A stretch of DNA of 53,888 nucleotides from a virus. This document shows, in pieces, positions 2,368 to 49,989 of this stretch (position 1 is its first letter; the number at the start of each line of letters is the position of its first letter). Both the position numbers and the translations under genes were made by a program. Location: positions 1 through 53,888 of the IMG/VR virus record IMGVR_UViG_3300030108_000869. One strand, 5' to 3'. The notes beneath the pieces are model-generated. The model searched no databases, had not been told where the DNA came from, and was given only the letters and a program-made list of their open reading frames with translations.

Positions 2368-2476
2368 TTTTGCAATAAGAGTTAAGGCCTCCTAGTCGGT
2401 AGCGACGACATTAAATAACCACGCAACTTCTCTTGACAGGTTCCTTGAGCTCACTCGGCCTGGTGAGATTGCAAAA
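2368..2476 (+). ncRNA. Structured RNA between tRNA-His and terminator
   Basis: A compact folded region with no gene. A perfect 9-bp closing stem TTTTGCAAT (2368-2376) / ATTGCAAAA (2468-2476) holds AAGAG/CTCTT (2377-2381/2430-2434), GTCG-GTAG-CGAC (2395-2406) and CTCAC/GTGAG (2450-2454/2463-2467), the last stacked directly on the closing stem. The loop of that hairpin (GGCCT, 2457-2461) is complementary to AGGCC at 2385-2389, so a pseudoknot is possible. GGCC is self-complementary, so that pairing needs proof. I do not match it to a known RNA family. It would be co-transcribed with the tRNA and released by the terminator. Confidence 0.55.
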
Positions 2477-2528
2477 ATAAGCCTAGAGCGGCTACAATGA
2501 AGTAGTACCTCTAGGCTTATTGTTTTTT
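2476..2528. terminator. Strong bidirectional terminator
   Basis: A 13-bp perfect stem AATAAGCCTAGAG (2476-2488) / CTCTAGGCTTATT (2509-2521), with further pairing GCTAC/GTAG inside, followed by TTTTTT on the + strand. Read on the - strand the stem is followed by TTATTTTT. It lies between the + transcript carrying tRNA-His and the structured RNA, and the convergent small terminase gene, so it can end both. Confidence 0.85.
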
Positions 2529-2531
2529 CGA

Positions 2532-2543
2532 AACCCACATCCG
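2532..2543 (+). repeat. 12-bp direct repeat, copy 1
   Basis: AACCCACATCCG, repeated exactly at 2992-3003. The two copies bracket the - strand small terminase gene. A related form (AACCTTCATCCG) is at 916-927. Copy 1 has no start codon at the 11-base spacing seen for the other two, so it may be a relic of an insertion or rearrangement, or a promoter reading across the terminase gene. Confidence 0.5.
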
Positions 2544-2984: not shown

Positions 2985-2991
2985 TTTTAAC

Positions 2992-3003
2992 AACCCACAT
3001 CCG
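2992..3003 (+). repeat. 12-bp direct repeat, copy 2, in leader of 3015 gene
   Basis: AACCCACATCCG, identical to 2532-2543. It ends 11 bases before the ATG at 3015, the same spacing as the related AACCTTCATCCG before the gene at 939. This makes it a candidate + strand start element as well as a repeat. Confidence 0.45.
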
Positions 3004-3014
3004 GAGTATTCGCA

Positions 3015-3185
3015 ATGAAAACACATATCAGAATAATAAATCCAATGGCTAGAGCTATGAATGAAGGTAGAAGGCGTCAATATGCGCATAAAATTATTCC
3101 GGATAAAACTAAATATAATCGTAAGAAATCTAAACAAGTGGCTCACGCCACTTTTTCTAATAATATAAATAAAGAAAGGAACTAG
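3015..3185 (+). CDS. Small basic conserved-type phage protein
   Basis: 56 residues, ATG at 3015 with GGAG upstream. The sequence INPMARAMNEGRRRQ, then IIPDKTKYNRKKSK, looks like the small Arg/Lys-rich proteins with a VIPDKKKYNRK end that recur in marine phages; this is recognition from memory. A terminator-like hairpin lies inside its last 17 codons, so either the hairpin is not an efficient terminator or the true function of the region is dual. It likely binds nucleic acid, given its charge. Confidence 0.55.
   Translation: MKTHIRIINPMARAMNEGRRRQYAHKIIPDKTKYNRKKSKQVAHATFSNNINKERN
3136..3157 (+). promoter_or_regulatory. Second copy of covarying hairpin element
   Basis: AAGTGGC (3136-3142), loop TCAC, GCCACTT (3147-3153), TTTC. 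Compared with 768-789 the stem differs by A-T to T-A, which keeps pairing, and the loop by G to A. It is inside the 3015 gene and 30 bases upstream of the nucleotide/replication module. A terminator there would cut a gene, so a hairpin promoter or attenuator is a real alternative. Confidence 0.5.
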
Positions 3186-10602: not shown

Positions 10603-11039
10603 ACGAAGAAAAACAACGTAGATATGATGAATTATATTTAGATATAGCTACGAGGATAAGTTTAATGTCTCACGATACTGATCACAAGGTAGGATCAGTT
10701 ATCGTTAGAGATAATAATATACTTGCGTTTGGATTTAATGGCATGCCTACAGGTATGAATAATAACTGTAAGAATGCTAATGGTTCTACTAAACAAGAAG
10801 TTATACATGCAGAAGCTAATGCTATCTGCAAGTTAGCGAGGAGCACGGGGAGCTCTGAGGGTGCTACATTATATAGCACTCTCTCCCCTTGTGTGGAATG
10901 CGCTAAGCTCATAATGCAAAGTGGTATAACTAGAATTATATTTAGAGAAACATATAAAGATGAAGCAGGTATTTTACTACTATTAAATAATAATAAAGAA
11001 GTGAAGGGCATAAAATGGAAGGACAACTTAAGTATCTAA
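10599..11039 (+). CDS. dCMP deaminase
   Basis: 146 residues, ATGA-coupled to the helicase. The zinc site is clear: HAEANAI near residue 63 and PCVECAKLI near residue 89. The N-terminal MSHDTDHKVGSVIVRDN and FNGMP are standard for the family. It converts dCMP to dUMP, the normal feed for a thymidylate synthase. If the ThyA-family enzyme instead uses dCMP, the two would compete for one pool. Confidence 0.9.
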   Translation: MNEEKQRRYDELYLDIATRISLMSHDTDHKVGSVIVRDNNILAFGFNGMPTGMNNNCKNANGSTKQEVIHAEANAICKLARSTGSSEGATLYSTLSPCVECAKLIMQSGITRIIFRETYKDEAGILLLLNNNKEVKGIKWKDNLSI

Positions 11040-13204
11040 AGCATAAGATAACAAAATCTAAAGCTCATATAGCTTGTAACCTTTTAAAGGAAACTTCTTT
11101 AGAAGACTTAAAAGCATACTTAGTATTTTCAATGGATACTATTCAACAACATTTCACTCGTAATAGTATGAGAGGAAACAAATCATACCAAGGTGAAGCT
11201 AATCTTACTCATTTAAGTGTAGCTATTGGCACACATATATTAACAGAAATTAATTATAATAATGAAAAAGATGCACCTTGGGATTGGTTTAAACTTCGAG
11301 TTATGATGGGTGATTTATTTTTAGAACCATTCTATCAGACACATCAAATTAATATAGGTAAAACTAGAGATAATACATTTATACCTATAGAATCTCTTGA
11401 TAGAAGTCTTAAAAGAAGCCGAGCACATTATATAGTTGTACCTGAGAAATGGGATTTAGCTATACCAGAAGGCAGCGAAAACTTACTTAAAGGTACAGTA
11501 TTTGAAAAGCCTGAGCCTATAAATAATTTAATGCAACCTACAGGAAGACCTGTAATTAAAGGCTGGACTCTTGATAAAAGTAAACTATTTAAACCTTACT
11601 TAGCTAATAGTTTTATTAAGAGTATGAATGTGCTACAACAAACTGAATGGAAAATTAATAATAATGTTAGGGATATTTTAAATCGTAATAGAACTAAAAT
11701 ACTAAATCAATATAAAAGTTTTCCTAAGAAATATAAATCTAAAATTATAGAGTTTGATTTAACAATGGCTAGATCAAAACTTATTGGTGATAACTCATTT
11801 TATCAATATACTGAAGCAGATTATCGTGGTAGAATTTATTATACTACACCCTTCTTAAACTTTCAGGGTAACGATATAGCAAGAGGTCAAATGCTTTTTG
11901 CTAATGGTAAACAAATGAATGACAGTGGTTTAAGAAGACTTAAAATACATATAGCCTGCGCTTATAATCAAACTTATAATAAAAATAATCTTCCAAACTG
12001 GTTAACTACCGATTACATTCCTTATTTAAATGATGAAGGATTAGATGATATATCTGTAGACAAAATGAGTTTAGAAGATCGTGAAGCATGGACTGATAAT
12101 AATGTTGATATGCTATTTAATTTAGCTGACAAAGAAATTATAGATCCCAATGCTGAAAAACCTATTACTTTATTAGCAAGTATCCTAGAAATTAAAGATG
12201 CTTTAAATAAAGATGAATATATTACTTATCTTCCTATACCTATTGATGGTTCTAATAATGGTTGGCAACACTTATGTGCTATGTCAAAAGACCAGAAAGC
12301 TGGGGAGCTTGTAGGTATTGTACCTCAAGAAATTCAAAAAGATTTTTATGTACAATGTGCTAAAGATTTAATTGAAAGAGTACCAGAATGGTTTGAAGAA
12401 AGACAAATGCCAATGAAACATATACGTAAAGGTATAGCTAAACGCGGTTCAATGACTCGAGCATATAGTGCTGGAGCACAAAAGATTGCAGAGAATATGT
12501 ATCTTGACTGTCATGTGGAAGGATATTTAGATAAGTATAATATTACTAAAGAAGATTGTGAGATGCTTGCAAAGCATTTAATTAAAGCAATTGATAAAGT
12601 TTGTGCAGGTCCATTACAAACTATGAAATTTCTACAGAAGATTGCAGAAGCTGAGATAGCCTCTGAATATGCTAAGTTTATTAAACAAAAAGCAATAAAA
12701 TGGACGACACCATCAGGATTTCCTGTTGTATATGAAGCATTTGTTGAGAATGAATTCAAAGAAAAAGCTATTATAAGCTGTAGTGAACGTGCTATTAAGC
12801 CTACAATAACTAAAGAAGATGGTACTAAAGAAGAAACTGATACTATAAGAATACAACATGTAGGTAAAGAGCCTACAGATAAACCTAAGATCAGATCTTT
12901 TATGTCAGGTATCTCACCTAACTTTGTACATTCAATGGATGCAGCTCATATGGCTAAAGTTATTTCTAAATGGGGGGAAGATTTCGGCGCCGTACATGAT
13001 TCGTTTAGTGTACATGCGTGTGATGTTGATGAGTTATTACAACTTATTAAAGATCAGTTTATAGAAATGTATAGTTACCCTAACTTTTTTGAAGTAATTG
13101 AGCGTATGATTATAACAAACCCTGATAATTTTAATTATAACCAACCTAAGTTAGGAAACTTAGATATTAGAGAGGTAAATAAAAGTGAGTACTTCTTCGC
13201 ATAA
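11015..13204 (+). CDS. T7-like single-subunit RNA polymerase
   Basis: 729 residues, shorter than T7 (883). Conserved parts: DYRGRIYY (T7 DxxGR), motif A PIDGSNNGWQH, motif B KRGSMTRAYSAG with Lys476 and Tyr484, and motif C VHDSFSVHA. Two usual residues differ: Ser485 replaces the Gly after the Tyr, and Lys472 replaces T7 Arg627. It transcribes middle and late genes. The three TAAATGTCYCCTWWAA motifs on the - strand are the best promoter candidates. It is the last large + gene, just before the central terminator. Confidence 0.95.
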   Translation: MEGQLKYLKHKITKSKAHIACNLLKETSLEDLKAYLVFSMDTIQQHFTRNSMRGNKSYQGEANLTHLSVAIGTHILTEINYNNEKDAPWDWFKLRVMMGDLFLEPFYQTHQINIGKTRDNTFIPIESLDRSLKRSRAHYIVVPEKWDLAIPEGSENLLKGTVFEKPEPINNLMQPTGRPVIKGWTLDKSKLFKPYLANSFIKSMNVLQQTEWKINNNVRDILNRNRTKILNQYKSFPKKYKSKIIEFDLTMARSKLIGDNSFYQYTEADYRGRIYYTTPFLNFQGNDIARGQMLFANGKQMNDSGLRRLKIHIACAYNQTYNKNNLPNWLTTDYIPYLNDEGLDDISVDKMSLEDREAWTDNNVDMLFNLADKEIIDPNAEKPITLLASILEIKDALNKDEYITYLPIPIDGSNNGWQHLCAMSKDQKAGELVGIVPQEIQKDFYVQCAKDLIERVPEWFEERQMPMKHIRKGIAKRGSMTRAYSAGAQKIAENMYLDCHVEGYLDKYNITKEDCEMLAKHLIKAIDKVCAGPLQTMKFLQKIAEAEIASEYAKFIKQKAIKWTTPSGFPVVYEAFVENEFKEKAIISCSERAIKPTITKEDGTKEETDTIRIQHVGKEPTDKPKIRSFMSGISPNFVHSMDAAHMAKVISKWGEDFGAVHDSFSVHACDVDELLQLIKDQFIEMYSYPNFFEVIERMIITNPDNFNYNQPKLGNLDIREVNKSEYFFA

Positions 13205-13455: not shown

Positions 13456-13490
13456 CCCCGGGCTTAAAAGCTCGGGGTATTTTTTTTATT
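13456..13490. terminator. Central terminator between convergent operons
   Basis: CCCCGGGCTT (13456-13465), loop AA, AAGCTCGGGG (13468-13477), one G-T wobble, then TATTTTTTTTATTTTT on the + strand. It is the most GC-rich element of the region. On the - strand the stem is followed by ATATTTTT, so it may also stop the converging late transcripts. It lies between the last + gene (stop 13445) and the last - gene (stop 13492). Confidence 0.9.
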
Positions 13491-13736: not shown

Positions 13737-13752
13737 TTAAAGGAGACATTTA
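13737..13752 (-). promoter_or_regulatory. Putative late promoter, copy 2
   Basis: On the - strand this reads TAAATGTCTCCTTTAA and ends 12 bases before the ATG at 13724. Its first three bases are the stop codon of the large gene ending at 13750. It would drive only two tiny genes before the central terminator. Confidence 0.55.
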
Positions 13753-16700
13753 AGTATTATGATCTACATTAACTGTCTTCATATCGCTATCTACAATACT
13801 TCTTACAGCAGATCTTCTATCACCAATTATTTTTTCAGCACCTTTATTTCTAGCAGCTATTTGCAAAGCACTATCTATTTCTTTTATAATAGTTTTTATT
13901 TCTTTACCAGTAAGTTTATCTAAGTTAGTAGATATTTTTTTATTTAACATTTTATCTAGCTTAGCTTCAATTATTTTAGAGTCAATAAAAGATTCTCTTG
14001 ATATTCTATCATTCCATTCTGCTAAAGTTTCTTGTCTATTCCAATTATATTTACCAAAACCTAGCGCTCTAAGCATTTGTGCAATACCTTTTGAAGTTCC
14101 TGTAGCAGATCTATTAGTTTCACTTACTTCAAATAGCTCACTAATAACTTTAAATTTACTAGCCTCTTCTGTAGTATCAAATATTTCATTATCTGGTATT
14201 TTATTTAAGTCACTTTTAAATTTATTATTATAATATCCTGTAACTTTTTCTAAGAAATCTTCTTTAATTAGTGATTCTTTATGATGTTTATTTGCTTCTT
14301 TCCTAACTATATCTATAGTTCCTAAGTCTGTTAAGAAGGCATCAAAGATAGGTAGCACAAAAGTATTTGAAGCTCCATTTGATTTAGCAGCTTGTTGTAT
14401 TGCTGACCATGAATCTGTAAAAGTTCTGGTAATCATATTAGCATCAAAGCCTTGTGTTAATGCAGGTAATAATCTACCTGTAGTAAAGGCACCAGCAATT
14501 TCTGTTTCACCAAATAATCTTCTTGATGCTCCTGGGTTAGTAAGTGTTTTATATTGTTGAACTGTAACAGGCTTACCATCTAGCTCATATTGTGTAGCAG
14601 CATCTTGTAAAGAATCAGTACCAGCAATTGTAGAAAGTATTCCGGTAGGCTGCTTAATTTTCATTAATGATCCTGATATAGCAGACATAAATGCATTAGC
14701 TTTTATAAGTCTAGCTGCTGCTAATGTTTCAGGATCCATAGTTTCAAATATAGAATCAACTAATATTGTATGTAAAAATTCTACAACCTCATTAGTATTT
14801 AAGTTATGATCTCTAATCATATCTTGAATATCAGAACTCATAAATACTGCATTATCTACATGACCAACTAATGATCCAATTTCTTGACCATATCCCATAG
14901 TCATAGGAGACTTCTTTAAAAAGTTTTCTCTATCATTAATAGCAGCATCAAGTATATCTCTGTATACATCTTGATTTTCATGATTAATATAAGTAACACC
15001 TTGAGTTATTACATTAAACTTTTTTCTCATGGTATCAGCCATAGCATCTCTAAGGTCTGCATATTCACCAGACTCTACCATTTTTTCAAAGTTCTGGTCC
15101 ATTATAATACCAGATCTTTTAGCCATATTAGTACTACCTAATAATACAGCCATAGTAGAAGGACCATGAGTTTTACCATCCATTTCTAATGTAATACTTG
15201 ATTTAAAAGTTTGAGGGCTACTTGGATTTTTTAAGTTAGCTTGTTTAACTCTATGATAATCAGCCAATGCCATTAGATAATCAGCTTGTAATACAGCTTC
15301 ATCTTCATACTTTGCCAGATAAGCTTTTAAACCCTGCGTCATAGGATCTCCGCCAAATTGTTGGCCTATAGCTTGCTTAATACCTCTTACTTCACCAGGA
15401 CTTGTAGCATTTTTAAATCTAGTTAATAGTCCTTGTGCATTTTTTGTTTTGTAATTACGAGTAAGTTTAATTAATTCTTCACCCATTCCTACATATTTCA
15501 TATATAAACTATTAGCAGGATTAGTTTCAGCATTTAATTCTTCTTGTTTAAAAACTCTAATTCTTTCTTCAGGTGTTCTAGCAATACCATATTTCTTTTT
15601 AAAGTTTACGTCCATTCCAGATAACTTTGGATTTTCAAATAAGTGTGCAGACATAGCTTCAATAAAAGTTGTATCTAACTTACCTTGACCTGGAATCCAT
15701 TGATATACATTACCACTACCTACAACACTTCGAATTATTTTTTTAGCCTGAGGATTATATACAGTTTGTTGAGCATGCATTCTTCCGGTTAACGCTTGCA
15801 TAGCAAAGTTTAAATAGTTAGCTTTACCAGAGTATCTTAACATACCTTCAACAATACCTATTGCATTTTCTCTTTCAAGATTAAGAATATTAATAGGATC
15901 ATAAGCCTCTGCTTGTGCTCTTAGTGACGCTGCTTTATTAACTTTACCCTGCTGCTCAGCTCTTTCAGCAGCATTAAATAGTTTTGCTTTTTCACTAACT
16001 AAGTTTTGATATTTTTCTTTACCAATCTTAAACATATTAGCGTAGTCATCTGTTGTAGGATTAGATCTATACATAGGTTCTTGATTATCTTGTACCTTTT
16101 CAGGTCTTCCTGCGTTTGCTAATGCTAACATAAATAACATAACACTAGTAGCTTCTCTACGAGGATCATTTACAAAAGCAACTTTATTCATATTAGACAT
16201 TGCTTCAAATACTTTTGTTGTATCACCAAGATCTCCGATTTGTGTAGTAACTTTTCTAGTATAAGTTTGTCCTTCAAAAACCATTTGACCGTCTTCAGAA
16301 GGCGCTACTCCTGGAGGTACCTCTTGTCTACCAAATAAACCTGAATACATATGATATAAGTTTTCAAATATACCAGAACCTTTTGGCGTTAAAGTAAAAG
16401 TAACTTGTCCATTTTCTAATGAACGTGTAAGCATATCTGAATTAGCTTTATAATATGCTTCTTTAGCAAGATCACCTATTTGTACAAAAACATGATTAGG
16501 AATTGATTGCATATTAGCTGCATAAGTATCAGTAGGTAAACCTCTTTTATCTGCTTGCAATCTTTTATATTGTTTAAATACTTCTCTACCTAACTGAGCG
16601 CGTCCTTGAGCTTTACTATATTTAATTTGTTTAGCTACATTACCCTCAGCTAATTCAGTTTCATCCATAGCTTCAGCACTTTTATTATCTGTAGTATACA

Positions 16701-17445
16701 TACCTTGAATATAAAATTGTTCAGTTACTAAACCCATAGTTGTTAATAAATCGTTATCTAGTTGTACTAAACCTTGATCATCAATTAAACCTGCATCTAA
16801 TACTTCAGGATGATATAGTATAGCTTTATTACTCATTTCAATAGTAGAGTTTCTTAATAGCGGAAACTTAGTAGTTAGCTCAACATCCATTGGATCTTTA
16901 CCAGTTTTTTTAGCTTCATTTGCTCTTCTTCTCGCAGTAAAAGTTGCTTCCCAACTATTAGTATCTGTTAAAGTTTCTCTTTCTAATCTACCAAAAGCTG
17001 TTCCACCAACATTAATACCTTGTAAGTTTTTAGCTCTCATCATAGGACCAACCATAGCTGAATCAGTTCCATTAATAACTGCATCTAATCCATCAAATGT
17101 AACTACACCTTGAGTCTCAGGTATAGACTTAACTCTTTCTCGCTCTCTTTGCTGAGCTTCAATAGATATACTTTCTCCAGGAGCAGGCTTAGTTATTTGA
17201 TCTGGTATTTCAATTTGTGCTGATGGTTCTGCACTACCCTGTTCAGGTTGCTCTGTAATACCGGGATCTTGTAAATCCGCACTCATAACTTTAGCAACAT
17301 CTTGCTGTTTTGTAAAAGTATCTTCAGCAATGGTAGGCATAAACCCTGCTAACGGTAAGTTTTTAGATTTTTCTAATATATCCGTAGGTAAATTGCCCTG
17401 AGTTATTGAAGGGGTTTTTCCTGGTACATTAACATTTATTGCCAT
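13750..17445 (-). CDS. Virion RNA polymerase-like internal protein
   Basis: 1231 residues. The frame opens at a TTG at 17463, but the ATG at 17445 follows AAGGAG, so I start there. It carries the landmarks of single-subunit RNA polymerases in order and at plausible spacing: LTGRMHAQQTVYNPQ with Arg555 (T7 Arg425), EMDGKTHGPSTMAVLLG with Asp756 (T7 Asp537), FLKKSPMTMGYG with Lys844 and Tyr852 (T7 Lys631, Tyr639), and IFDAFLTDLG with Asp1035 (T7 Asp812). Length and place, last large gene of the virion operon, fit an N4-type virion RNA polymerase ejected with the DNA to read early genes. The usual T/D of the TxxGR motif is Ala, and the motif B Arg is shifted by one. It is not a copy of the T7-like polymerase at 11015. 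The N-terminal 100 residues are Pro/Gln-rich and disordered. Confidence 0.72.
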   Translation of the reverse strand: MAINVNVPGKTPSITQGNLPTDILEKSKNLPLAGFMPTIAEDTFTKQQDVAKVMSADLQDPGITEQPEQGSAEPSAQIEIPDQITKPAPGESISIEAQQRERERVKSIPETQGVVTFDGLDAVINGTDSAMVGPMMRAKNLQGINVGGTAFGRLERETLTDTNSWEATFTARRRANEAKKTGKDPMDVELTTKFPLLRNSTIEMSNKAILYHPEVLDAGLIDDQGLVQLDNDLLTTMGLVTEQFYIQGMYTTDNKSAEAMDETELAEGNVAKQIKYSKAQGRAQLGREVFKQYKRLQADKRGLPTDTYAANMQSIPNHVFVQIGDLAKEAYYKANSDMLTRSLENGQVTFTLTPKGSGIFENLYHMYSGLFGRQEVPPGVAPSEDGQMVFEGQTYTRKVTTQIGDLGDTTKVFEAMSNMNKVAFVNDPRREATSVMLFMLALANAGRPEKVQDNQEPMYRSNPTTDDYANMFKIGKEKYQNLVSEKAKLFNAAERAEQQGKVNKAASLRAQAEAYDPINILNLERENAIGIVEGMLRYSGKANYLNFAMQALTGRMHAQQTVYNPQAKKIIRSVVGSGNVYQWIPGQGKLDTTFIEAMSAHLFENPKLSGMDVNFKKKYGIARTPEERIRVFKQEELNAETNPANSLYMKYVGMGEELIKLTRNYKTKNAQGLLTRFKNATSPGEVRGIKQAIGQQFGGDPMTQGLKAYLAKYEDEAVLQADYLMALADYHRVKQANLKNPSSPQTFKSSITLEMDGKTHGPSTMAVLLGSTNMAKRSGIIMDQNFEKMVESGEYADLRDAMADTMRKKFNVITQGVTYINHENQDVYRDILDAAINDRENFLKKSPMTMGYGQEIGSLVGHVDNAVFMSSDIQDMIRDHNLNTNEVVEFLHTILVDSIFETMDPETLAAARLIKANAFMSAISGSLMKIKQPTGILSTIAGTDSLQDAATQYELDGKPVTVQQYKTLTNPGASRRLFGETEIAGAFTTGRLLPALTQGFDANMITRTFTDSWSAIQQAAKSNGASNTFVLPIFDAFLTDLGTIDIVRKEANKHHKESLIKEDFLEKVTGYYNNKFKSDLNKIPDNEIFDTTEEASKFKVISELFEVSETNRSATGTSKGIAQMLRALGFGKYNWNRQETLAEWNDRISRESFIDSKIIEAKLDKMLNKKISTNLDKLTGKEIKTIIKEIDSALQIAARNKGAEKIIGDRRSAVRSIVDSDMKTVNVDHNT

Positions 17446-17455
17446 ATAATTCTCC

Positions 17456-20400
17456 TTATGCAAATAGCTCGGCTATATTTCTGTTAAGCTGGTTAACAGG
17501 TCCGATAATAGGCATAGTCTTTAGTATTTTATAAATACCTGTTTCAGTTTTCCCTTCTATAACTTGACCAACACCTGTAGCAGCTCTAGTTATATTTGAT
17601 AACGCAGCTGCTTCTCCTGATACTGTTTGAAATAATTCTTCTACCATATTACTTGATGATGTTTCATATATTGGAAAGAAGAAATTTAAAGGTCTTTCAG
17701 CTACACCAATTAATCCTGATGCACCTATACCTCTTTGAATTACTTCAGCTCTATCTAAATACGGTGTAGCCATACCATATTTTAATAGATCTTTTAAATA
17801 CTGTGATACAAATCCTAGCATAACCATTGTTGTCATAACTGCAAAAGCATTATACTTCATTGCAGGTGTACCACGTTTAACGTAGTCACCCCACATTCTA
17901 GGTATTTGGTTAGCTGTAAATGTAGCTATAAAACCTTGGAACTGTGTAAACAAAGCTATATGTGGATTATTATAAAACAATGGTCTGTTAGCTGTTCCAG
18001 GTAATGCAATTGCTTCATTAACAAAATTATACTGAGCATGCATAAATATTCTATCTAGCTCTGCATCTGTTTGTGATCTTCTTAATCTATAATCTTGTAT
18101 GCTTTCATTTGGCTTTACACCAACTGGTTGATTAGATAATTCTAAAAGTCTACCAACATTAATACCTAAGTTTCTTAATTGTTCTTCTGCTTCTTGTACT
18201 TCATTAGTTTTAGGTTCACCACTTTGCCTAGCAATTTGTATAGTATTTAAGTGATCTAAAATAAAACTGTCTGCAATACTAGCTCTTATATTACGTGTGT
18301 AATCTGTCCATTGCTGCAAACCAATAACTCTAAAGTATTTATCTAATAAATATCTTGAAGCATAAGTATTTTCAGTGGCACCTGTAGTTTGTGATGCACC
18401 AACATCCCAATCAAAGAATCCTAACTTCTGTAAGCGAGCTTGTCTTTTTTCTTTATTAAGTCTTGCTTGTGTAGAGTTAATACCAGGATTTGTTATACCA
18501 CTCCATAGTGCTTGTGCAAATTCTTTAGCAGCTGTAGCTATTACTGTACGTATTTGTTCAGGAGTTAAAGCTCTCATAGTCATCATAAATTCTACAAAAG
18601 ATGATACAGTTGCTAATGGTAATCCTGCAAGTGTAGTCCATACTAATATTTTCTTTTGTATATTTTCTAATGTTTTATTTTCTATTCTTTTATAGTTACC
18701 TGATTCAGCTTGTAAGTAATTTCTTAAGCCTGCTGCTATTCTGTTAGCTCTTTCTTCAGATAAACCCTCAGCTTTAGCTTCTCTTAATAGCTGTGCAAAA
18801 ACTTCATTATTATCACCAAGAAACTTTTCATATGCTATAAATCTTGTAGCTGATTTAGCTGCATTAGATATGTTTACAAAATGATCTTCTTCCATAAATT
18901 GATCAAATCTAGTACGCTCTGATAAACCTAATGATCTTCTTTTAAATTGTGCGGGCACATGCTTACCTTTACCAACTTGAAATATACTTTCTTGATCTAC
19001 CATTTCATTATTATCAAGTATATCATTAGTTAAATCAGTAGCACTATCTAAAGTAAATCCAAATTCATCTTGTAATGCTTTAATAAATTCATTCTTTTTC
19101 TTTTCGATTTTAGATTTATTTAAAGATTTATATTTTAATAAATAGTTTTTAGTAAATCTTTCTTTACCATTATTATCTCTTAGTTTACTCTGTCTACCTG
19201 TACTAGTACCATCACTATATTCTTCTTCAGCTTTAACTTGATCATTAAATAATTTATTACCAAGTTTATTTATTTTTACATAGTATTCTCTAAGAAACTT
19301 TTCATTTGCTTTTAAATCAAACTCACCTTCAAAATCAGTTGGTAAAGTATTCCAATCTATATTCATTATTTTAGTAGGATCACCTTTAGAAACTAACCAT
19401 CTACCAAAAGCATATATTATTTTTGAATCTCTTATAGGATCTCTAGTTGATTTACCTAAAGCCTGAGCAACTTGAGAAGGTGTCATAGCCATGTTTTTAT
19501 ATTCTGCTAATTGAAGATGTTTGTATTCTTCAAATGTTTCACCCGAATGTATTCTATGCAAGTAACCATTTACTATTGAACCTAATTTTCTTATAGCTTT
19601 ACTTTGAAAAGAATCTTTCCAAAATAAATGAGGCATAGCACCTTTCCATAAGAATGGTAATTCTTTAGCAGTTTCTTTTACACTTGACCATATATCTCTA
19701 TCTTTAGCTTGCCTTTCACCAGCATCTGCCATAGTATTAAAATCATCAGACGGTGATAGTGGTCTAGCCCTAGCTTTTTTCTTAGCTTCTTCTGCTATAT
19801 CTTTATTACTTCTTTGTATACCATTATTTAAAGCCATTTCTTCTTCAGCCCATTTACCTTCTTGAGATAAACGTTTATCTTCAGCTGGCGCTTGTCTTAC
19901 AGCTACATCAGCCCATGCTCCCGCATTATAAGCTGTTCCAGGTACAGAAAATCCTGCACCTAAAGTTCCTCCTGCGATATAAGCATTAATTAATCTATTA
20001 GATAATTCAACAGAATCAAAAGGCTTATCACTACCATATACTGCTGCCATATAACCAGTAAGTTCCTGACCTAATTCAGTACTTGATTCTATACCAAATC
20101 CTCTAGCAGCATTCTTTGAAAAATTCTTTAATAAATTACCAAACTTTAATTGATCTTTTGCAACCTTTACTACATCACCTGCTAACTTTGCAGATTCTTT
20201 TCGAGTCATATTACCTATGGCAACTTTAGCCATATCATCAGTTGCTCCTGGGTTAGCTTGCTTGTATGCTTGTATCATATCATCTCTATACTTAGAATCT
20301 AATAAGGTACCCTTAGCACCTCCCATAAGTCCTTTAAGACCTAATCTATCTAAGACAGACATAGTAACACCAGCAGCTACAGCTAGGCTAGCATTCTTAT

Positions 20401-21553
20401 CTTCACCTTCCATTTCATTCCAGTTTTGTCCTGCATATACTGAAACAGGTGCAAGCATACTAACACCAACATTAGATAACGCAGCAACTCCTGTAGCACT
20501 TGCTAAAGATGTACCACCAGTTACTGGGGCTAATGCAGCACCACCTATAGTTACACCCATATAAGGTAAAGCCATAGCTGTCATGTTTCCCATATACTCA
20601 AAGAAACCGCCCACACCATCTATATCCCATTCATTTCCTATAACATTACCATCATTATCTAACTTATATTTTAGTATATTATTTTTTACTTCAGGTTTGT
20701 TAGCAAGATATTTGTGTTGTCTCTTAATACCTTCTTGACCAAGTTCTTCTAACCAATTAATACCAGTTTTTTCGCCAATCATATTAGCCATACCATAGGC
20801 ACCTTCAATAACACCAGTCCATCCTGTGTCAAAACTTTCAGACCAAGGATGAAGTGCTTTGTTTTGAAGTGTTCTATCGCTATGTCTTTTCTGAACTAAA
20901 CTATTACTATAATCTGCTGCTCTTCTTTTTCTTAAAGCATACATAGCATTTGATTCACCAGGTTGTCTTTCAGCATTTAATCTAGCTAATGTTTGTTCAT
21001 CAAGTGCTACTCTTTTAAATTCAGTTTCATAAAACTTTTCACTGTCTGCCATTTGATTAATAGCTATTCTTGCTTTATCAAACTGATCTAAGCTTTCATC
21101 TTGTAAATCAGGTGTACCTTCAGCTCTAAGCATTGCACCTATTTGTGCTGCTTGTATTTCTTCAGGTGAACTAAACCTATTTAGTTTACCTATACCATAT
21201 GAATTTAAAGTTTCTACAAAATCTCTACCATCTGGATCAGTAATTCTAACTAACTGTCTAGTACCAGTGGCATCCATCATAGGTGTACCATCTGGATTTG
21301 TAAGATAATGTACGTTATTAAAATCAAATTGTTCTGCTAGGTTTCTAATTTGTTTAGTAGCTTCCCAACCACCAGCAGTTCCAGGTTTTAAATTACCATC
21401 TATCATACGCATTATTTCGGGTGCACTCAAACCTTGTAGTCTAAGAAGATTACCTTCTTTATTTATAAGAGTATCACCATCAATAAAGCGATGTTCCATA
21501 TTATCTATAGGTGGTGGTTTATCAAAACCTGACACATCTATATTAATAGCCAT
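17456..21553 (-). CDS. Giant internal virion protein with SNase-like N-terminus
   Basis: 1365 residues. Residues 20-135 resemble a thermonuclease (SNase) domain: RFIDGDT (Asp25, Asp27) and LRLQGLSAPE (Arg38, Glu46), with the usual Asp of DxPE replaced by Ser43, so catalysis may be weakened. A hydrophobic Gly/Ala-rich block around 320-400 and another near 1240-1290 suggest membrane insertion. The rest is long and helical. Large ejected proteins of podoviruses build the channel through the host envelope, which suits this layout. It begins MAINIDV, like the polymerase next door (MAINVNV). TAATG overlap with the upstream gene shows co-translation. Confidence 0.6.
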   Translation of the reverse strand: MAINIDVSGFDKPPPIDNMEHRFIDGDTLINKEGNLLRLQGLSAPEIMRMIDGNLKPGTAGGWEATKQIRNLAEQFDFNNVHYLTNPDGTPMMDATGTRQLVRITDPDGRDFVETLNSYGIGKLNRFSSPEEIQAAQIGAMLRAEGTPDLQDESLDQFDKARIAINQMADSEKFYETEFKRVALDEQTLARLNAERQPGESNAMYALRKRRAADYSNSLVQKRHSDRTLQNKALHPWSESFDTGWTGVIEGAYGMANMIGEKTGINWLEELGQEGIKRQHKYLANKPEVKNNILKYKLDNDGNVIGNEWDIDGVGGFFEYMGNMTAMALPYMGVTIGGAALAPVTGGTSLASATGVAALSNVGVSMLAPVSVYAGQNWNEMEGEDKNASLAVAAGVTMSVLDRLGLKGLMGGAKGTLLDSKYRDDMIQAYKQANPGATDDMAKVAIGNMTRKESAKLAGDVVKVAKDQLKFGNLLKNFSKNAARGFGIESSTELGQELTGYMAAVYGSDKPFDSVELSNRLINAYIAGGTLGAGFSVPGTAYNAGAWADVAVRQAPAEDKRLSQEGKWAEEEMALNNGIQRSNKDIAEEAKKKARARPLSPSDDFNTMADAGERQAKDRDIWSSVKETAKELPFLWKGAMPHLFWKDSFQSKAIRKLGSIVNGYLHRIHSGETFEEYKHLQLAEYKNMAMTPSQVAQALGKSTRDPIRDSKIIYAFGRWLVSKGDPTKIMNIDWNTLPTDFEGEFDLKANEKFLREYYVKINKLGNKLFNDQVKAEEEYSDGTSTGRQSKLRDNNGKERFTKNYLLKYKSLNKSKIEKKKNEFIKALQDEFGFTLDSATDLTNDILDNNEMVDQESIFQVGKGKHVPAQFKRRSLGLSERTRFDQFMEEDHFVNISNAAKSATRFIAYEKFLGDNNEVFAQLLREAKAEGLSEERANRIAAGLRNYLQAESGNYKRIENKTLENIQKKILVWTTLAGLPLATVSSFVEFMMTMRALTPEQIRTVIATAAKEFAQALWSGITNPGINSTQARLNKEKRQARLQKLGFFDWDVGASQTTGATENTYASRYLLDKYFRVIGLQQWTDYTRNIRASIADSFILDHLNTIQIARQSGEPKTNEVQEAEEQLRNLGINVGRLLELSNQPVGVKPNESIQDYRLRRSQTDAELDRIFMHAQYNFVNEAIALPGTANRPLFYNNPHIALFTQFQGFIATFTANQIPRMWGDYVKRGTPAMKYNAFAVMTTMVMLGFVSQYLKDLLKYGMATPYLDRAEVIQRGIGASGLIGVAERPLNFFFPIYETSSSNMVEELFQTVSGEAAALSNITRAATGVGQVIEGKTETGIYKILKTMPIIGPVNQLNRNIAELFA

Positions 21554-24500
21554 TAGTTAACTCCACTTAGTTTATTAGTAATATCAATTACAAATAATGC
21601 ATACGGTGTTAGTCCTTCATTTTCAGGTTTCTTTGCAGCTTCTTCATATTCTTTTCGCCATAATTTACCTGTGTCTGGATTAATACCTTTAGGTTTACCA
21701 TCTTTAGTTGTGCCACGGTTATTCCAAATATCGGCTGCTTCATTATAAAATTGATTAATATCCTGAGATACTGATTTAACTCTATCATTAATATTCATTA
21801 GAGTATCTGTATCTACTTGAACAACTTCATCTCCAACTTTAGCTTGAGTTAAACCTGGAACCATTATATCTAATCTTTGTTTTATAGTAGCTTCTTCTAA
21901 GTAAGGTATAAGTGATTCAGCTTTAGAAGGTGGCTTACCATCTGGAGGATTAGTAAAGTTTTCAGCAGCAGCTATAACTGCCATTTTTAAACCAGGACCT
22001 AATCTTTGTAATGATATACCATTTTCTTGTGCCCAAAAAGCAATTTCTTCAGCTGAATTAGCAGGTGTTAAGTTAGTATAGTCCTCATATATTTTAGCTT
22101 TTGTTGTTTTATTAACACCAGTTAGCTTACGTGCATGCTTATTTAAAAGCTCTTCCATTTGATCTTTAATATTAGGAATCTTTTTTCTAGCTGCCTCATT
22201 AAATTGATCACTACCTTTTACTTTACTACCATCTTCACTATAGCCTGCACCTATTCTGCTCTTACCATTTATATCAAATGACCAGTAAGTAAGATCACCT
22301 TCACCTGTTTTAATTTTAAACTGATAAGCCATTCTACCAGAAGGCCCAGTGTCTTTACCAAACCATGGTTTTCTTTCACCAGTACTTCTAACCTTTGCAC
22401 CTTTAGGTATTAATGTGCTATAGTCACCTCGAGAATCTTTAAATGCTTGTAAAGATATAGGCTCAAACTTATCTGCATTATCAGCTATATACTTATCTAT
22501 TTGAGCTGTCTTAGCATCTACTCTTTTAAGATACTGTTTAGCAACATAGTTAATTGAGCTGTTATGGTCATAACCTAATGCTCTTGAACCTAAGTAAACA
22601 GCAGCAGCCCTTCCAATTTCTTTAGCATCTATAAGATCACCAAATAAAAACTTCATAGCATCTTTAGCTTTTTGTACATTAGGATTCTTTGGATCATTAG
22701 CTCCAGATGTATTTATAATACTTGCATTATTAGCTAAGTCGGTAGAAATCTTATTAGCTGTTGCATCATCTATTTTACTAGCAGCATTATTTAAATTAGC
22801 TTCAGATTCATTAGCCTCAGCTTTATTTATTATATTAGTTATTTTAGCTGACTCAGTTTTTTCGTATTCTGCTTTAAGAGCATTTAGTCTTTCTTGAGCT
22901 AAATCTTTTTCAGATTTAGTAGCATCTTTATCTGTTAATATTTTTTCATTTTTTTGTATTGCCATTATAAGATCTGCATCCTTAACCTTTGCTTTAAATA
23001 AAGGTTCCGGACCTTCTCCAGGTGCTACAGCTAATTTAGTAGCTAGCATTGATTCTTCTTCAGATAATTTATTTTCAAAATCTAATATTTCTTTTCTAAG
23101 TCGTGCTACTTTTTCTGCATACTTAGGATCATTAGGATTTAAATTAGTAATTGATTTATCTCTATCTTTTATTCGCGATTTTAATCCTTTAATTGAGCTT
23201 CTTACAGCACCTATCTCACGCTTATCATTTTTTGCAAAAGCATCATCATAAATATTTCTTCTTGGAAGATTTATTATATCACCAGTATCATCATCATACA
23301 TATTTTCATCTACTGCCTCATATGGTGGTGGCATTTCCATACCTAATTCTTCCATACCTAATCCTTGAGGATCATATGAATAATTTCCTACAAATGTTTG
23401 TTGATCTAATGGTAACATATCAGATACATCTTCTTCAAAACCTGTAACTTTAGTATTACTTCTACCAATAGGATCTGGAATATTACTTTCCATAACCATA
23501 TCATCAGCACCAAAAGGTATAGGTTTAATTATTTCCGGTACACTTGGAGAATCTTCAAATGATATAGTTGTTGAATCATCTTCAGGTACTTGAACAGAAC
23601 TTAACGGATTATCATTTAATATTTCATTAGCTTTAGCTACATTTTGTTGTGAATCAAATATAAGCTTCATTATATCATCATCCATTGCAGAAGTAGTTTG
23701 ACCTGTAGTTCCATATATTTTACCACCAGGATCTAAGTGCACTGCACCACCTTCTTTAAAAGGATTTACTTTTTCTGGCTTAGTAAACTTAAAACCAATA
23801 TCATTTGGATCTATAAAATCTTTTACACTTTCAACAATGCTAGTAGCTTTTTCTTTAATACCACTAAAGGGATTAGGAATGTTAAGACTAAATCCATCTG
23901 AACTGGGAGGCACTTGTATTCCTGCCTCTCTATACTTATCATAAACTGAAGGATCACCAAATACTTTATTATCTATTAATTCTTTTATTTCTTCAGCTTT
24001 ATTAGCTCTTCTATCGGCATGAGGAATACCTGGTTTTAAATGTTTATTCATTATATCTAAAGCTATAGCTTTAGCATCTTTATTAGCAAATGACTCTTGT
24101 AAATTTTCAGCATTTGTTTTACCTATCCTAAAACCACTTTCATTTTTAGGATGAGGTACAGCATCTTTATTATATATACTTTGTACAAAATAATCTAACT
24201 GAGAAGCCATAGAATCTTTTTTATTATTTGCTTTTAAATAATTTAAATAAGGTTTCTTTTGTTCATCAAATTGAAATAGTCCCATACCTGGGCCCATTTG
24301 ATCACCAGTATTTTCATTTTGTCTAGTAGTGTACTCATAAGTATAACCAGTTTCTACACCTATATTACCCATAATACCCGCAATAGCATCATCAGTTAAC
24401 TGGGGATAGTTTTCTTTTAAGTAATTATAAATATCAGATTGTCTGCTTCTTTTATTTTTAAATTTCTCTCCAGCTATAACATCTTTACTAGGCTTAGGTA

Positions 24501-24792
24501 CAGGCATGCCAACTTCTGCATACTCAGGTTTCATATTTTGTATTTCTCTACCGTGGTCATTCATCTTTTTAATTATAGGACCGTATATATCTGTAGCTTC
24601 TTTGTTTACTACAAACTCACCAGGAGTAAGCCAAGCTGGTACAGTGTCAGTACCTTTAGGTTCTCCAGGATGATCATACATAGGTATTGAGGAAGTCATA
24701 GGAGGAACTTCCATTTGTCCTTCTGTAATATCAAACTCGAAAGACCTCATATTCCCATAGCGATCTTTTTGTGTAAACTTCTTTAACTTCAT
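21553..24792 (-). CDS. Internal virion protein with phage tail lysozyme domain
   Basis: 1079 residues, with AAAGGAG before the ATG. The N-terminal segment has GTDTVPAWLTPGEFVVNKEA, a motif common in phage structural proteins. Residues about 118-265 match the phage tail lysozyme type: LTDDAIAGIMGNIGVETG with the probable catalytic Glu, GMGLFQFD, LDYFVQSIYN. It would open the murein during DNA entry. A Lys/Glu coiled-coil follows (about 500-700), then alpha-rich regions. No separate endolysin is evident in the window, so this protein, or a gene I cannot recognise, may also serve lysis. Confidence 0.7.
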   Translation of the reverse strand: MKLKKFTQKDRYGNMRSFEFDITEGQMEVPPMTSSIPMYDHPGEPKGTDTVPAWLTPGEFVVNKEATDIYGPIIKKMNDHGREIQNMKPEYAEVGMPVPKPSKDVIAGEKFKNKRSRQSDIYNYLKENYPQLTDDAIAGIMGNIGVETGYTYEYTTRQNENTGDQMGPGMGLFQFDEQKKPYLNYLKANNKKDSMASQLDYFVQSIYNKDAVPHPKNESGFRIGKTNAENLQESFANKDAKAIALDIMNKHLKPGIPHADRRANKAEEIKELIDNKVFGDPSVYDKYREAGIQVPPSSDGFSLNIPNPFSGIKEKATSIVESVKDFIDPNDIGFKFTKPEKVNPFKEGGAVHLDPGGKIYGTTGQTTSAMDDDIMKLIFDSQQNVAKANEILNDNPLSSVQVPEDDSTTISFEDSPSVPEIIKPIPFGADDMVMESNIPDPIGRSNTKVTGFEEDVSDMLPLDQQTFVGNYSYDPQGLGMEELGMEMPPPYEAVDENMYDDDTGDIINLPRRNIYDDAFAKNDKREIGAVRSSIKGLKSRIKDRDKSITNLNPNDPKYAEKVARLRKEILDFENKLSEEESMLATKLAVAPGEGPEPLFKAKVKDADLIMAIQKNEKILTDKDATKSEKDLAQERLNALKAEYEKTESAKITNIINKAEANESEANLNNAASKIDDATANKISTDLANNASIINTSGANDPKNPNVQKAKDAMKFLFGDLIDAKEIGRAAAVYLGSRALGYDHNSSINYVAKQYLKRVDAKTAQIDKYIADNADKFEPISLQAFKDSRGDYSTLIPKGAKVRSTGERKPWFGKDTGPSGRMAYQFKIKTGEGDLTYWSFDINGKSRIGAGYSEDGSKVKGSDQFNEAARKKIPNIKDQMEELLNKHARKLTGVNKTTKAKIYEDYTNLTPANSAEEIAFWAQENGISLQRLGPGLKMAVIAAAENFTNPPDGKPPSKAESLIPYLEEATIKQRLDIMVPGLTQAKVGDEVVQVDTDTLMNINDRVKSVSQDINQFYNEAADIWNNRGTTKDGKPKGINPDTGKLWRKEYEEAAKKPENEGLTPYALFVIDITNKLSGVN

Positions 24793-44057: not shown

Positions 44058-45230
44058 TTAGTTAAGTCCGTAGATTGCTCCACAACCTAATGGATTACGT
44101 ACTTCAAGAGTACATTCTTCAACCATCATACCTTTAGTTGAATCACCTTGCTGACCTACATCAACCTCTTGTAGGTTTCTTAGGTAAGCTGTAGCAAACC
44201 ACATTGGATCATAAATCAATGCTGAGAAGTTAGCCATGTCTGGTTTACCGTCTGAAGTAAACTTAGTACTACCACTTCCGTCTCCTAACATATTATCAAA
44301 TACATTAGATAGACCCATAATATAGTTAGGCATAACCATAATTTCACCAAAGTCTGACATATAAACATCAACAGATTGTCTTAATTGACCACCTGCATCA
44401 ATGTTTCTAACTACGCCTGTATCACTAATCATAAGATCAGAGAAGTCTCTTCTTACTTTTGGTGATACCATAATCTTTGTAGCTTTACCACCTTGCTCAT
44501 AAATCTTCTGCATAACAGAATCAATATCAGTAAGTGCTAAACTTCCTCTTGTTGGAGCAGTAGAATCTGAAGCGTTTACGCTAGCTCTTGGAACAGCAGT
44601 ACCTTGATTATCATTACCTGCACCTGTTGTAGCAGCTGAAGGAGCTTCAAACTGTCCTACATAAACACATGTGCTTGCACTATTAATAAATGATTGATAA
44701 CCGCCTGCAGATCTTGCATTACCGTCTTGTGCAGCAATAGCAGCAGATACGTTATAGCTGTGAACCATATCAAATTCAACATCTCTTCGTAGTTCTGTAC
44801 CACGCTTCTTAAGCTGATATGCATATTCGTCTGCAACACCTGCTTGGTCAACGGCACGTCTTGTTCCTGACACAGCAATAGTTTTACCATTGATCTGTGT
44901 GTAGTTACCTAGTCTGGTTCTTTGAGGACCTGACTCTGCAAACTTATTTCCTACAGCAGGAGTTGCAGTACCACCACCAGAAGCTGGGGCTAAGAAGTCT
45001 TGACCTTCAGGGATTCTTGAATCACCTGGAGCTTCAAGTGTGTCTGTTTGCCATTCATGATAAATAGCAGTTGCGGATGATTTACCAATGTCTGATGTGA
45101 ACGGAGTCTCATCTCTAGTAATCATTGTTATAAAGTTCGCTAGGTCTTCTCTTTGCGAGACATTAGCACCTGGGCCACGTGTTGGACCTCCTGGGCCTCC
45201 GGTAGCGCGAACAGCTAATAAGTTAGTCAT
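44058..45230 (-). CDS. Major capsid protein (DUF5309/SU10-like)
   Basis: 390 residues, with TTAGGAGAA before the ATG. NVSQREDLANFITMITRDETPFTSDIGKSSATAIYHEWQTDTL is the hallmark start of DUF5309/SU10-type capsids of the HK97 fold. The C-terminal part has MVMPNYIMG and VFDNMLGDGS. It forms the head shell. The preceding gene encodes the likely scaffold, and a terminator follows. Confidence 0.85.
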   Translation of the reverse strand: MTNLLAVRATGGPGGPTRGPGANVSQREDLANFITMITRDETPFTSDIGKSSATAIYHEWQTDTLEAPGDSRIPEGQDFLAPASGGGTATPAVGNKFAESGPQRTRLGNYTQINGKTIAVSGTRRAVDQAGVADEYAYQLKKRGTELRRDVEFDMVHSYNVSAAIAAQDGNARSAGGYQSFINSASTCVYVGQFEAPSAATTGAGNDNQGTAVPRASVNASDSTAPTRGSLALTDIDSVMQKIYEQGGKATKIMVSPKVRRDFSDLMISDTGVVRNIDAGGQLRQSVDVYMSDFGEIMVMPNYIMGLSNVFDNMLGDGSGSTKFTSDGKPDMANFSALIYDPMWFATAYLRNLQEVDVGQQGDSTKGMMVEECTLEVRNPLGCGAIYGLN

Positions 45231-47850: not shown

Positions 47851-49989
47851 TTATTCTCCCTTTAAAATTTGTTTGGCCATCATTATAATTTGAGCATAGT
47901 TAGGATGCTCAGCTATTGGGGCACCTTCCTTAGTTGCTTTAATATTAAGGTCAGCCCATTCTTGATAATGTTTATCTATAGCTACAGCTAATTGTTTTGC
48001 ATTATCATCTTCAGTATTTTTAGTTTGAGCTTGTGTAAAACTTACATTTGCCTCCGCTAAAGCGGAATCTGCTGCAGCTTTTCTCTGAGCTAATCCCATA
48101 TCTACTTCAGCTTTTTGCGATTGCATTTGCATAGCTTTTACAGCTCTTTGTTTAAATTCGTCAGTAGTATAATCTTCTAAGAAATCATTACTATCTATAT
48201 TCATAGCTTCTATTAATTTAGTTGCTAATACTGCAGGTGCTTCAGGTTTAATGATTATACCCGCACCTTGCGTATTAAGTGCTGGTAATATGTCTGAGCC
48301 TATCTTAGATAACTTTTGAATCATATTAGCATTTGAGTTTTCACCAATATCTAAAGCTATTTCAACATCCATATTTTTTGGAAGGTCATCCATATTAACA
48401 GTACCATAGATACCATCCATATTATATGAAATCATACCCTTCATATTCTTTGACATAGTATGATATAAACCAGATATTAATTTTTTAAATCCTGTTTCAG
48501 CAAATCTACGTGCAATATGTTGTATTCTTTTTTGTGCTGCAGACTGCACAGCAGCTAGTTTCTGCTCTGAGTTACCTGATATATATAAAGTATCATTAAG
48601 GCCTTGTGCGGCCTTCGACATGCCCGTTGCTTGCTCCTTTATTACTTGTAAGTATTCTAATAATGGTACTGTACCTGAAGATATTGTTTCAGGTGCCATC
48701 TGTTGTACTGCGCCTACAGGATTACCATTAGTTGGTATAATCTGTTTAGGCTTCATATTCTGTAATGCACTAAAATCAACTACATTAGGATCTGCTAACT
48801 TAGGACTATAGTTAGTTAAATAAGTATTTTCTACAAAACCTCTTAATACTGCTGTATTTGCTAACGTAGATGATCTAGCAAAGTCTGCCATTGATAAACC
48901 ATAGAACTCAAATGGTATATCAATAGGTACAATAGAAGCTAATGGTATGTGATCAACGTCTTCTTCATGTAATATATGCGTACCTACAGAAATAATATAC
49001 TTTAATTCTGCAATACCGTCACCATCTCTGTCTACATGTACCCAAGATTCTGTAACTGCAAGGTTTTTATTAGCTTCTAATGGCTCAGTATCGTACATAT
49101 TACTACCTTGCCAGTATTCTTGGCCAGTAACTTCTTTTCTTGCAGCTATATCTTCTGAATATTTTGAAGATCCTACCCAATTATCACCATATAACTCATC
49201 CCAGTCTGTAATTTCTGCGCTAGCTTCAGGATAATACTTTCTTATTTCTGATCTTGTCATCTCTGTTTGTATACCAACAAAAGATGCGTCTTCAATTGTA
49301 GTAGCTTCTCTAGAAATTCTAAAATTTTCTGGTGGTATTAAGTCTATTTTTACACGAGATTTGTTTATTGTTCTTTTTATACGTACATTTATATAAGTTA
49401 GTTCTGCTTTTATCTCTTCTCCTTCTAAAGGATTAATTTCTTGAAAAGTATTTTCAAACTGTAACTCACCAACTACTTCAATACTGTCATCTGCAAGTAG
49501 CTCATCTAATTTTGATTGTGATATTTTATCAAATTCTTCAAACATATGGTCAAATTCTTCTACATATGTCCAACGACATACAGAATTTTTCCATAATAAA
49601 GAGGCTTTAATCCATTGCTGCATCAATTCCCAGCCATTATTCTTTTTAAACAAACAATAATTAACTAAATTAGATGCATCTTTGGCCGCAGCAAAGCTGC
49701 CCGGAGTTTCATCGTACGGTACAAAGCGTGCTAGTTTATTATTATTTAAAAATAAATCAGATATAATAGCAGTATATGCTTCAATTATTTCAGTTGTAGA
49801 TGTATCAACTATTGTTGAAACACCTTGCGGCATTAAATGATACTCAGGTACTCCTGCATATTCATAAGTAGCTTTTAATCTTTCACGAGTTAAATCTGAA
49901 GAGTTTAAAAAATCACCCGTTGAATTCATTACACCTTCATCAATTAGATTAATAAGCTGCTCATCAGTTACTTTTTCATAGGAAGTCAT
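47851..49989 (-). CDS. Portal protein
   Basis: 712 residues. Features typical of large podovirus portals: helical N-terminus (EQLINLIDEGVMNSTGDFLNSSDLTRERLKATYEYAGVPE), STTEIIEAYTAIISDLFL, a wing with beta structure, VHVDRDGDGIAELKYII, then VLRGFVENTYLTNYSPK and a helical Ala/Gln crown (about 640-680). It forms the dodecamer through which DNA enters and leaves the head. Size and place, between terminase-side genes and head genes, agree. Confidence 0.8.
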   Translation of the reverse strand: MTSYEKVTDEQLINLIDEGVMNSTGDFLNSSDLTRERLKATYEYAGVPEYHLMPQGVSTIVDTSTTEIIEAYTAIISDLFLNNNKLARFVPYDETPGSFAAAKDASNLVNYCLFKKNNGWELMQQWIKASLLWKNSVCRWTYVEEFDHMFEEFDKISQSKLDELLADDSIEVVGELQFENTFQEINPLEGEEIKAELTYINVRIKRTINKSRVKIDLIPPENFRISREATTIEDASFVGIQTEMTRSEIRKYYPEASAEITDWDELYGDNWVGSSKYSEDIAARKEVTGQEYWQGSNMYDTEPLEANKNLAVTESWVHVDRDGDGIAELKYIISVGTHILHEEDVDHIPLASIVPIDIPFEFYGLSMADFARSSTLANTAVLRGFVENTYLTNYSPKLADPNVVDFSALQNMKPKQIIPTNGNPVGAVQQMAPETISSGTVPLLEYLQVIKEQATGMSKAAQGLNDTLYISGNSEQKLAAVQSAAQKRIQHIARRFAETGFKKLISGLYHTMSKNMKGMISYNMDGIYGTVNMDDLPKNMDVEIALDIGENSNANMIQKLSKIGSDILPALNTQGAGIIIKPEAPAVLATKLIEAMNIDSNDFLEDYTTDEFKQRAVKAMQMQSQKAEVDMGLAQRKAAADSALAEANVSFTQAQTKNTEDDNAKQLAVAIDKHYQEWADLNIKATKEGAPIAEHPNYAQIIMMAKQILKGE

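Follow-up and report, generated by a model that had tools for sequence, protein, structure and literature searches.

A compact candidate virion RNA polymerase of the N4 lineage in marine phages

The DNA analysed here, referred to below as the window, is the 53,888-nucleotide virus record IMGVR_UViG_3300030108_000869. The late operon of this genome ends with a minus-strand open reading frame (ORF) at 13750-17445 that starts with an ATG at 17445, stops at 13750-13752 and codes for 1231 amino acids (aa); an alternative upstream start, a TTG at 17463, would extend the product to 1237 aa. The gene is convergent with that of a T7-like RNA polymerase (RNAP), and two further large genes stand beside it. 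An earlier note on this DNA had claimed that the ORF codes for a second RNAP, of the type carried in virions, and had named as its catalytic residues Arg555 in a GR motif, Asp756 in motif A, Lys844 and Tyr852 in the motif K-x-S-x-M-T-x-x-Y-G, and Asp1035 in motif C. All of these residues were found at the positions named; the ORF is present on the minus strand with the length claimed, and the two large neighbours (1365 and 1079 aa) and the T7-like enzyme at 11015-13204 exist as well. Only one in 20,000 shuffles of the 1231-aa protein contains K-x-S-x-M-T-x-x-Y-G and, thus, this motif is not a product of chance.

Single-sequence searches with the protein gave nothing useful in Pfam, PHROGs, the PDB or 50,697 phage records, and hmmsearch with family profiles found nothing relevant among PDB sequences; at such a distance, only profile-profile and fold comparison work. 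As the single sequence matches nothing, relatives were collected by synteny and profile, using as queries the T7-like RNAP, the 1365-aa neighbour and then the family alignment itself. The resulting marine-phage family comprises 61 non-redundant proteins, the window's own included, with a mean column identity of 16%. Despite this divergence, Arg555, Asp756, Tyr852 and Asp1035 are invariant (61/61), position 844 is Lys in 59 members and Arg in two, and the catalytic motifs DxxGR, A, B and C, which define the single-subunit RNAP superfamily, follow one another in this order in every member. DGKTHGP or DGKTNG is the usual form of motif A, and motif B reads K..xMTxGYG and motif C FDAF or YDAF. Additionally, a direct match to the T7-RNAP PHROG was obtained with eight of 21 family members (best E 1e-7). 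The phage collection searched holds no cultured phage with a close relative; four members used as protein queries found no match. Attribution of a host from bacterial genome bins was discarded, being based on three contigs only, which is unreliable as evidence.

The relationship to the virion RNAP (vRNAP) of phage N4 was examined with hhalign, using a profile of the mini-vRNAP region built from N4 and 11 other Schitoviridae. The compact family aligns with this N4-type family over 900 columns with a probability of 99.95% and an E-value of 6.7e-37, although hhalign E-values refer to single comparisons and are best judged through controls. In a second run with default options, the probability was 99.5% over 707 columns, whereas eleven control comparisons of the neighbouring giants, a DNA polymerase, a primase, the portal and the capsid with either the compact family or N4 gave 0.1-1.3% (the portal and capsid profiles consisting of one or two sequences each). 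Without any motif hint, the alignment pairs R555, D756, K844, Y852 and D1035 with R424, D559, K670, Y678 and D951 of N4, so that the profile-profile check proposed in the earlier note places the named residues opposite the catalytic residues of the N4 enzyme. Comparison of the compact family with the T7-like RNAPs encoded alongside it gave 92.2%, and that of N4 with those T7-like RNAPs 26.1%. With 99.95% against 92.2%, N4 vRNAP is the closest relative of the compact family, which is also linked to the T7-like enzymes.

The predicted structure agrees with the profiles. AlphaFold2, run on residues 90-1231 with the 61 sequences, gave a model with a mean pLDDT (predicted local distance difference test) of 90.1 and a pTM (predicted template modelling score) of 0.89. 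All of its 50 best Foldseek matches in the PDB are single-subunit RNAPs (T7, mitochondrial and N4, including the N4 mini-vRNAP; E 4.5e-13 to 2.6e-10), and the absence of an RNAP fold, which the earlier note had named as grounds for refutation, is not what was found; the model has the palm-fingers-thumb fold of this superfamily. In a viral structure library, phage RNAPs and entries that are unnamed or uncharacterised take the top places, and the first DNA polymerase comes at rank 50. TM-scores of about 0.4 are modest, but no more so than is to be expected of remote homologs that have several mobile domains. The modelled strand that closes with Asp756 leads into a helix, Lys844 and Tyr852 are placed on a helix or immediately after it, and Asp1035 occupies the turn of a beta-hairpin; this modelled arrangement is the palm topology.

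These results bear on two explanations that would deny the protein a role in transcription. According to one of them, it is an unrelated internal virion protein with chance matches to the motifs; the blank single-sequence searches of Pfam, PHROGs, the PDB and phage genomes would be in keeping with this, but fold, profile and conservation evidence agree with one another and the fold search already refutes it, which leaves it barely any credit. According to the other, the protein is an ejection or structural protein that keeps the RNAP fold, has lost catalysis and serves in DNA transport or scaffolding. Ejection proteins are indeed often large and helical; however, the catalytic Arg, the two Asp, the Lys (or Arg) and the Tyr are kept in all 61 members in spite of the low overall identity, and loss of catalysis would not preserve them, so we consider this explanation very improbable. 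Judged by its sequence, the polymerase looks catalytically intact and belongs to the N4 vRNAP lineage in a compact form. The reading proposed in the earlier note is largely supported.

Table 1. Polymerase gene, its catalytic codons and related features (window coordinates unless stated otherwise).
Feature	Position	Strand	Basis
Compact N4-type single-subunit RNA polymerase, 1231 aa	13750..17445	-	family of 61, hhalign, AlphaFold2 + Foldseek
Arg555 codon, DxxGR/TGR motif (N4 R424)	15781..15783	-	hhalign map; Arg 61/61
Asp756 codon, motif A EMDGKTHGP (N4 D559)	15178..15180	-	hhalign map; Asp 61/61; strand end in model
Lys844 codon, motif B KKSPMTMGYG (N4 K670)	14914..14916	-	hhalign map; K 59, R 2 of 61
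Tyr852 codon, motif B (N4 Y678)	14890..14892	-	hhalign map; Tyr 61/61
Asp1035 codon, motif C IFDAF (N4 D951)	14341..14343	-	hhalign map; Asp 61/61; beta-hairpin turn in model
Single-chain T7-like RNAP, 729 aa, last large gene of replication operon	11015..13204	+	PF00940 E 2e-59; phrog_414 E 1e-98
Terminator-like hairpin and T run between the convergent polymerase genes	13456..13477	+	consensus scan only
Giant ejection-type protein, 1365 aa	17456..21553	-	phrog_6958 virion structural protein E 1e-19; tblastn to tf
Staphylococcal-nuclease-like N-terminal domain of the 1365-aa protein	21014..21553	-	hmmsearch vs PDB; AlphaFold2 + Foldseek
Giant ejection-type protein, 1079 aa, tail-lysozyme domain residues 118-271	21553..24792	-	PF18013 Phage_lysozyme2 E 1.3e-15
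CRP-7 gp33, annotated hypothetical (CRP-7 genome coordinates)	17859-21566	-	profile match to compact family

Compared with N4 gp50 and its Schitoviridae counterparts (mini-vRNAP, PDB 2po4), the catalytic domain is homologous throughout and has the same catalytic residues. The signature ExDGxxxG (PMC10654107) is present as E754-M-D-G-K-T-H-G761; it occurs in 35 of the 61 members, and the T7-like RNAP encoded by the window lacks it. By contrast, N4-type vRNAPs have 2,842-3,820 aa and a C-terminal domain (PMC10654107, PMC12633501), while the protein described here, at 1231 aa, is one third of the approximately 3,500 aa of N4 gp50 and ends shortly after the catalytic domain. Consequently, it stands outside the Schitoviridae gp50 family as this is defined by length and C-terminal domain. 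The T7-like RNAPs (phrog_414, PF00940, including the one at 11015) share the fold and catalytic motifs and show weak sequence similarity, but they are more distant than N4 vRNAP, have a motif A without the Glu (DGSNNG) and are encoded away from the structural genes. Polymerase injection as such is also found elsewhere. For instance, crAss-like and phiKZ-type jumbo phages inject multi-barrel or cellular-type RNAPs, which are unrelated to the single-subunit fold. Thermus phage P23-45 (PMC10770324) has a similar injection strategy, but its RNAP is likewise of the multi-barrel or cellular type and unrelated to that fold.

The gene context resembles that of N4, where the vRNAP gene is also terminal in the late operon and lies among ejection proteins, with gp51 and gp52 as neighbours. 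The 1365-aa gene adjoins the polymerase gene on the same strand in 107/107 loci, and convergence with the T7-like RNAP gene was seen in 131/131 (overlapping contigs being counted more than once in both cases). The C-terminal third of the 1365-aa protein is related, by tblastn, to the "phage particle protein" of phage tf (LUZ24 group), whose virion proteins were assigned via homology to LUZ24 proteins seen by mass spectrometry (PMC3517423); the gene of this particle protein ends the tf late operon, with no large gene beyond. At the other end of the 1365-aa protein, a match to staphylococcal nuclease (SNase), missed by Pfam, was obtained by hmmsearch against the PDB (profile E 1.6e-5). The AlphaFold2 model of this domain has a pLDDT of 90.4 and its top Foldseek matches are SNase (prob 1.00); R38, E46, R99 and D27 lie opposite R35, E43, R87 and D21 of SNase and are invariant in 45 aligned sequences. 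With such an N-terminus in one neighbour and a lysozyme domain in the other, the three genes resemble a set for ejection, with one product to open the wall, a nuclease and a polymerase. A packaging signal shared by the N-termini of the polymerase (MAINVNV) and its neighbour (MAINIDV) was considered and rejected, as it is lost in relatives.

From this gene position and these neighbours we infer that the polymerase is most likely virion-borne. An alternative is that it is a real RNAP of this family that is not carried in the virion, acting as a late or middle enzyme inside the cell while host RNAP starts transcription. The fact that gene order and analogy are what places the protein in the virion speaks for this alternative, as does the failure to find N4-like promoter hairpins in the window. 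However, the gene ends the structural operon, on the strand opposite the replication genes, to which the T7-like RNAP gene belongs, and always adjoins a giant virion-type protein, and N4 vRNAP, which holds the same place, is the nearest characterised relative; we therefore regard an enzyme confined to the cell as unlikely, though worth keeping in mind.

Several observations weigh against a polymerase of the N4 virion type. The 1231-aa protein lacks the C-terminal domain found in N4 vRNAP. N4-type vRNAPs use hairpin promoters, with recognition involving the -11 element and the specificity loop. The promoter contacts of N4 are not conserved, W129 being opposite a Leu and D901, R904, K114 and R119 remaining unaligned. 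The window shows no excess of N4-like promoter hairpins, with two GC-containing hairpins with 3-nt loops against 2.3 expected. Finally, the proposed geometry of the active site derives from the fold match and the mapping of residues. As no promoter was found and the N4 contact residues are not conserved, promoter recognition by the compact polymerase may differ from that of N4. Gibbs sampling for a T7-like promoter motif in intergenic gaps also gave nothing above shuffles, and a suspected TATAAATAA element was dismissed because its frequency is at chance level. The hairpins at 768-785 and 3136-3153, which share a 7-bp stem with a compensating change (AAG(A/T)GGC-TC(G/A)C-GCC(T/A)CTT), were rejected as promoters; each follows a stop codon and has T runs downstream and, thus, they are read as terminators.

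The second polymerase is a single 729-aa chain with T7-like motifs, and not the heterodimeric RNAPII that characterises Schitoviridae. A PF00940 RNAP accompanies the compact polymerase in 40/40 records tested, about half of which had been found via the T7-like RNAP and the other half via the vRNAP profile. N4 itself has a vRNAP and RNAPII, the latter a gp15/gp16 heterodimer, and in a 2015 survey all species with a vRNAP homolog had a heterodimeric RNAP, except two with a differently split gp16 (PMC4496689). The earlier note had suggested that a phage with both types of polymerase would follow a distinct transcription strategy. The pair is not in itself new, because N4 already combines a vRNAP with a T7-like RNAPII; the new elements, in comparison with the open-licence literature, are a vRNAP of compact form, a second enzyme made of one chain and a genome that is not N4-like. 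Regarding the latter, in a test for Schitoviridae hallmark genes (major capsid protein, portal, DNA polymerase and others), 17 N4 proteins had no phmmer match at E 1 among the window ORFs, and outside the portal PHROG the remainder of the genome shows no recognisable likeness to N4. N4 and the window have in common only this PHROG (1216) and a broad DNA polymerase PHROG (17). The portal gene (47851-49989, minus strand) belongs to phrog_1216, as does that of N4, and the major capsid protein (44058-45230, minus strand) belongs to phrog_1328, compared with phrog_1357 in N4.

A cultured relative is offered by Roseobacter phage CRP-7, whose gene order (gp30, an RNAP, followed by gp33, gp34 and gp35) matches that of the window, and whose description names only the T7-like RNAP (PMC6918029). 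There is no pairwise similarity between gp33 and the window polymerase, but hhalign of the gp33 family with the compact family gave 96.8%, against 0.4-0.5% for controls. The length and slot of gp33 are like those of the window polymerase, with motif A at Asp678, motif B at Arg766/Tyr774 (Arg in place of Lys) and motif C at Asp979; the GR motif could not be placed in the profile alignment. To judge from these motifs, gp33 probably belongs to the compact family as a highly divergent member, an assignment that is likely and not certain, given that its profile derives from few, similar sequences.

Two observations concern the genome as a whole. The terminase gene (52227-53888, minus strand) runs off the right end of the window at 553 aa, compared with 555 aa in a 58,008-bp relative (17418-19085); because it is almost full length at this end, the window is a near-complete, probably circularly permuted genome. 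Additionally, at window 2473-2543 and 2985-3003, a 23-nt inverted repeat follows a tRNA-His gene (2291-2364), and the repeated AACCCACATCCG flanks an ORF on the minus strand (2548-2964) in surroundings coded on the plus strand, a unit that looks like an insertion.

Homology, fold, conserved catalytic residues, gene order and the co-occurrence of both polymerases are computed results; packaging, ejection, the early-gene role and the order of the cascade are what we infer. On this basis, the protein is very likely an active N4-type RNAP, stripped approximately to its catalytic domain, that is packed in the virion, ejected and used to start early transcription, and it probably works like N4 vRNAP. 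Its synthesis would be late, together with that of the structural proteins; once packaged in the capsid, it would enter the host by ejection along with its two giant partners, the lysozyme-domain protein and the SNase-like-domain protein, and the trio would breach the wall, cleave nucleic acid and initiate transcription. The compact polymerase would then transcribe the earliest phage genes, among them those of the replication operon, which has the T7-like RNAP gene at its end; the T7-like RNAP in turn would transcribe the middle and probably the late genes. More tentatively, and with doubt prevailing, one may picture a widespread lineage of marine podoviruses with an ejected three-part kit (lysozyme, nuclease and compact vRNAP) and two single-chain polymerases of their own, possibly independent of host RNAP throughout and recognising promoters in a way unlike N4.

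The compact family has probably been missed through length filters. In 2023, IMG/VR was surveyed with a hidden Markov model of N4 vRNAP; hits below 2,500 aa, described there as being almost all remote T7-like RNAPs, were dropped, and ExDGxxxG was required of the rest (PMC10654107). The 1231-aa protein may have been among the dropped hits. Single-subunit vRNAPs have so far been treated as a giant speciality, of about 3,500 residues, of the Schitoviridae, whereas the family described here is widespread, one third of that size and found in phages without recognisable N4 character. For biochemistry, it provides a vRNAP that is minimal by nature and, through its profile links to both groups, it bears on the divergence of vRNAPs and T7-like enzymes. 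With CRP-7 as a cultured relative, infection independent of host RNAP becomes testable in uncultured ocean phages.
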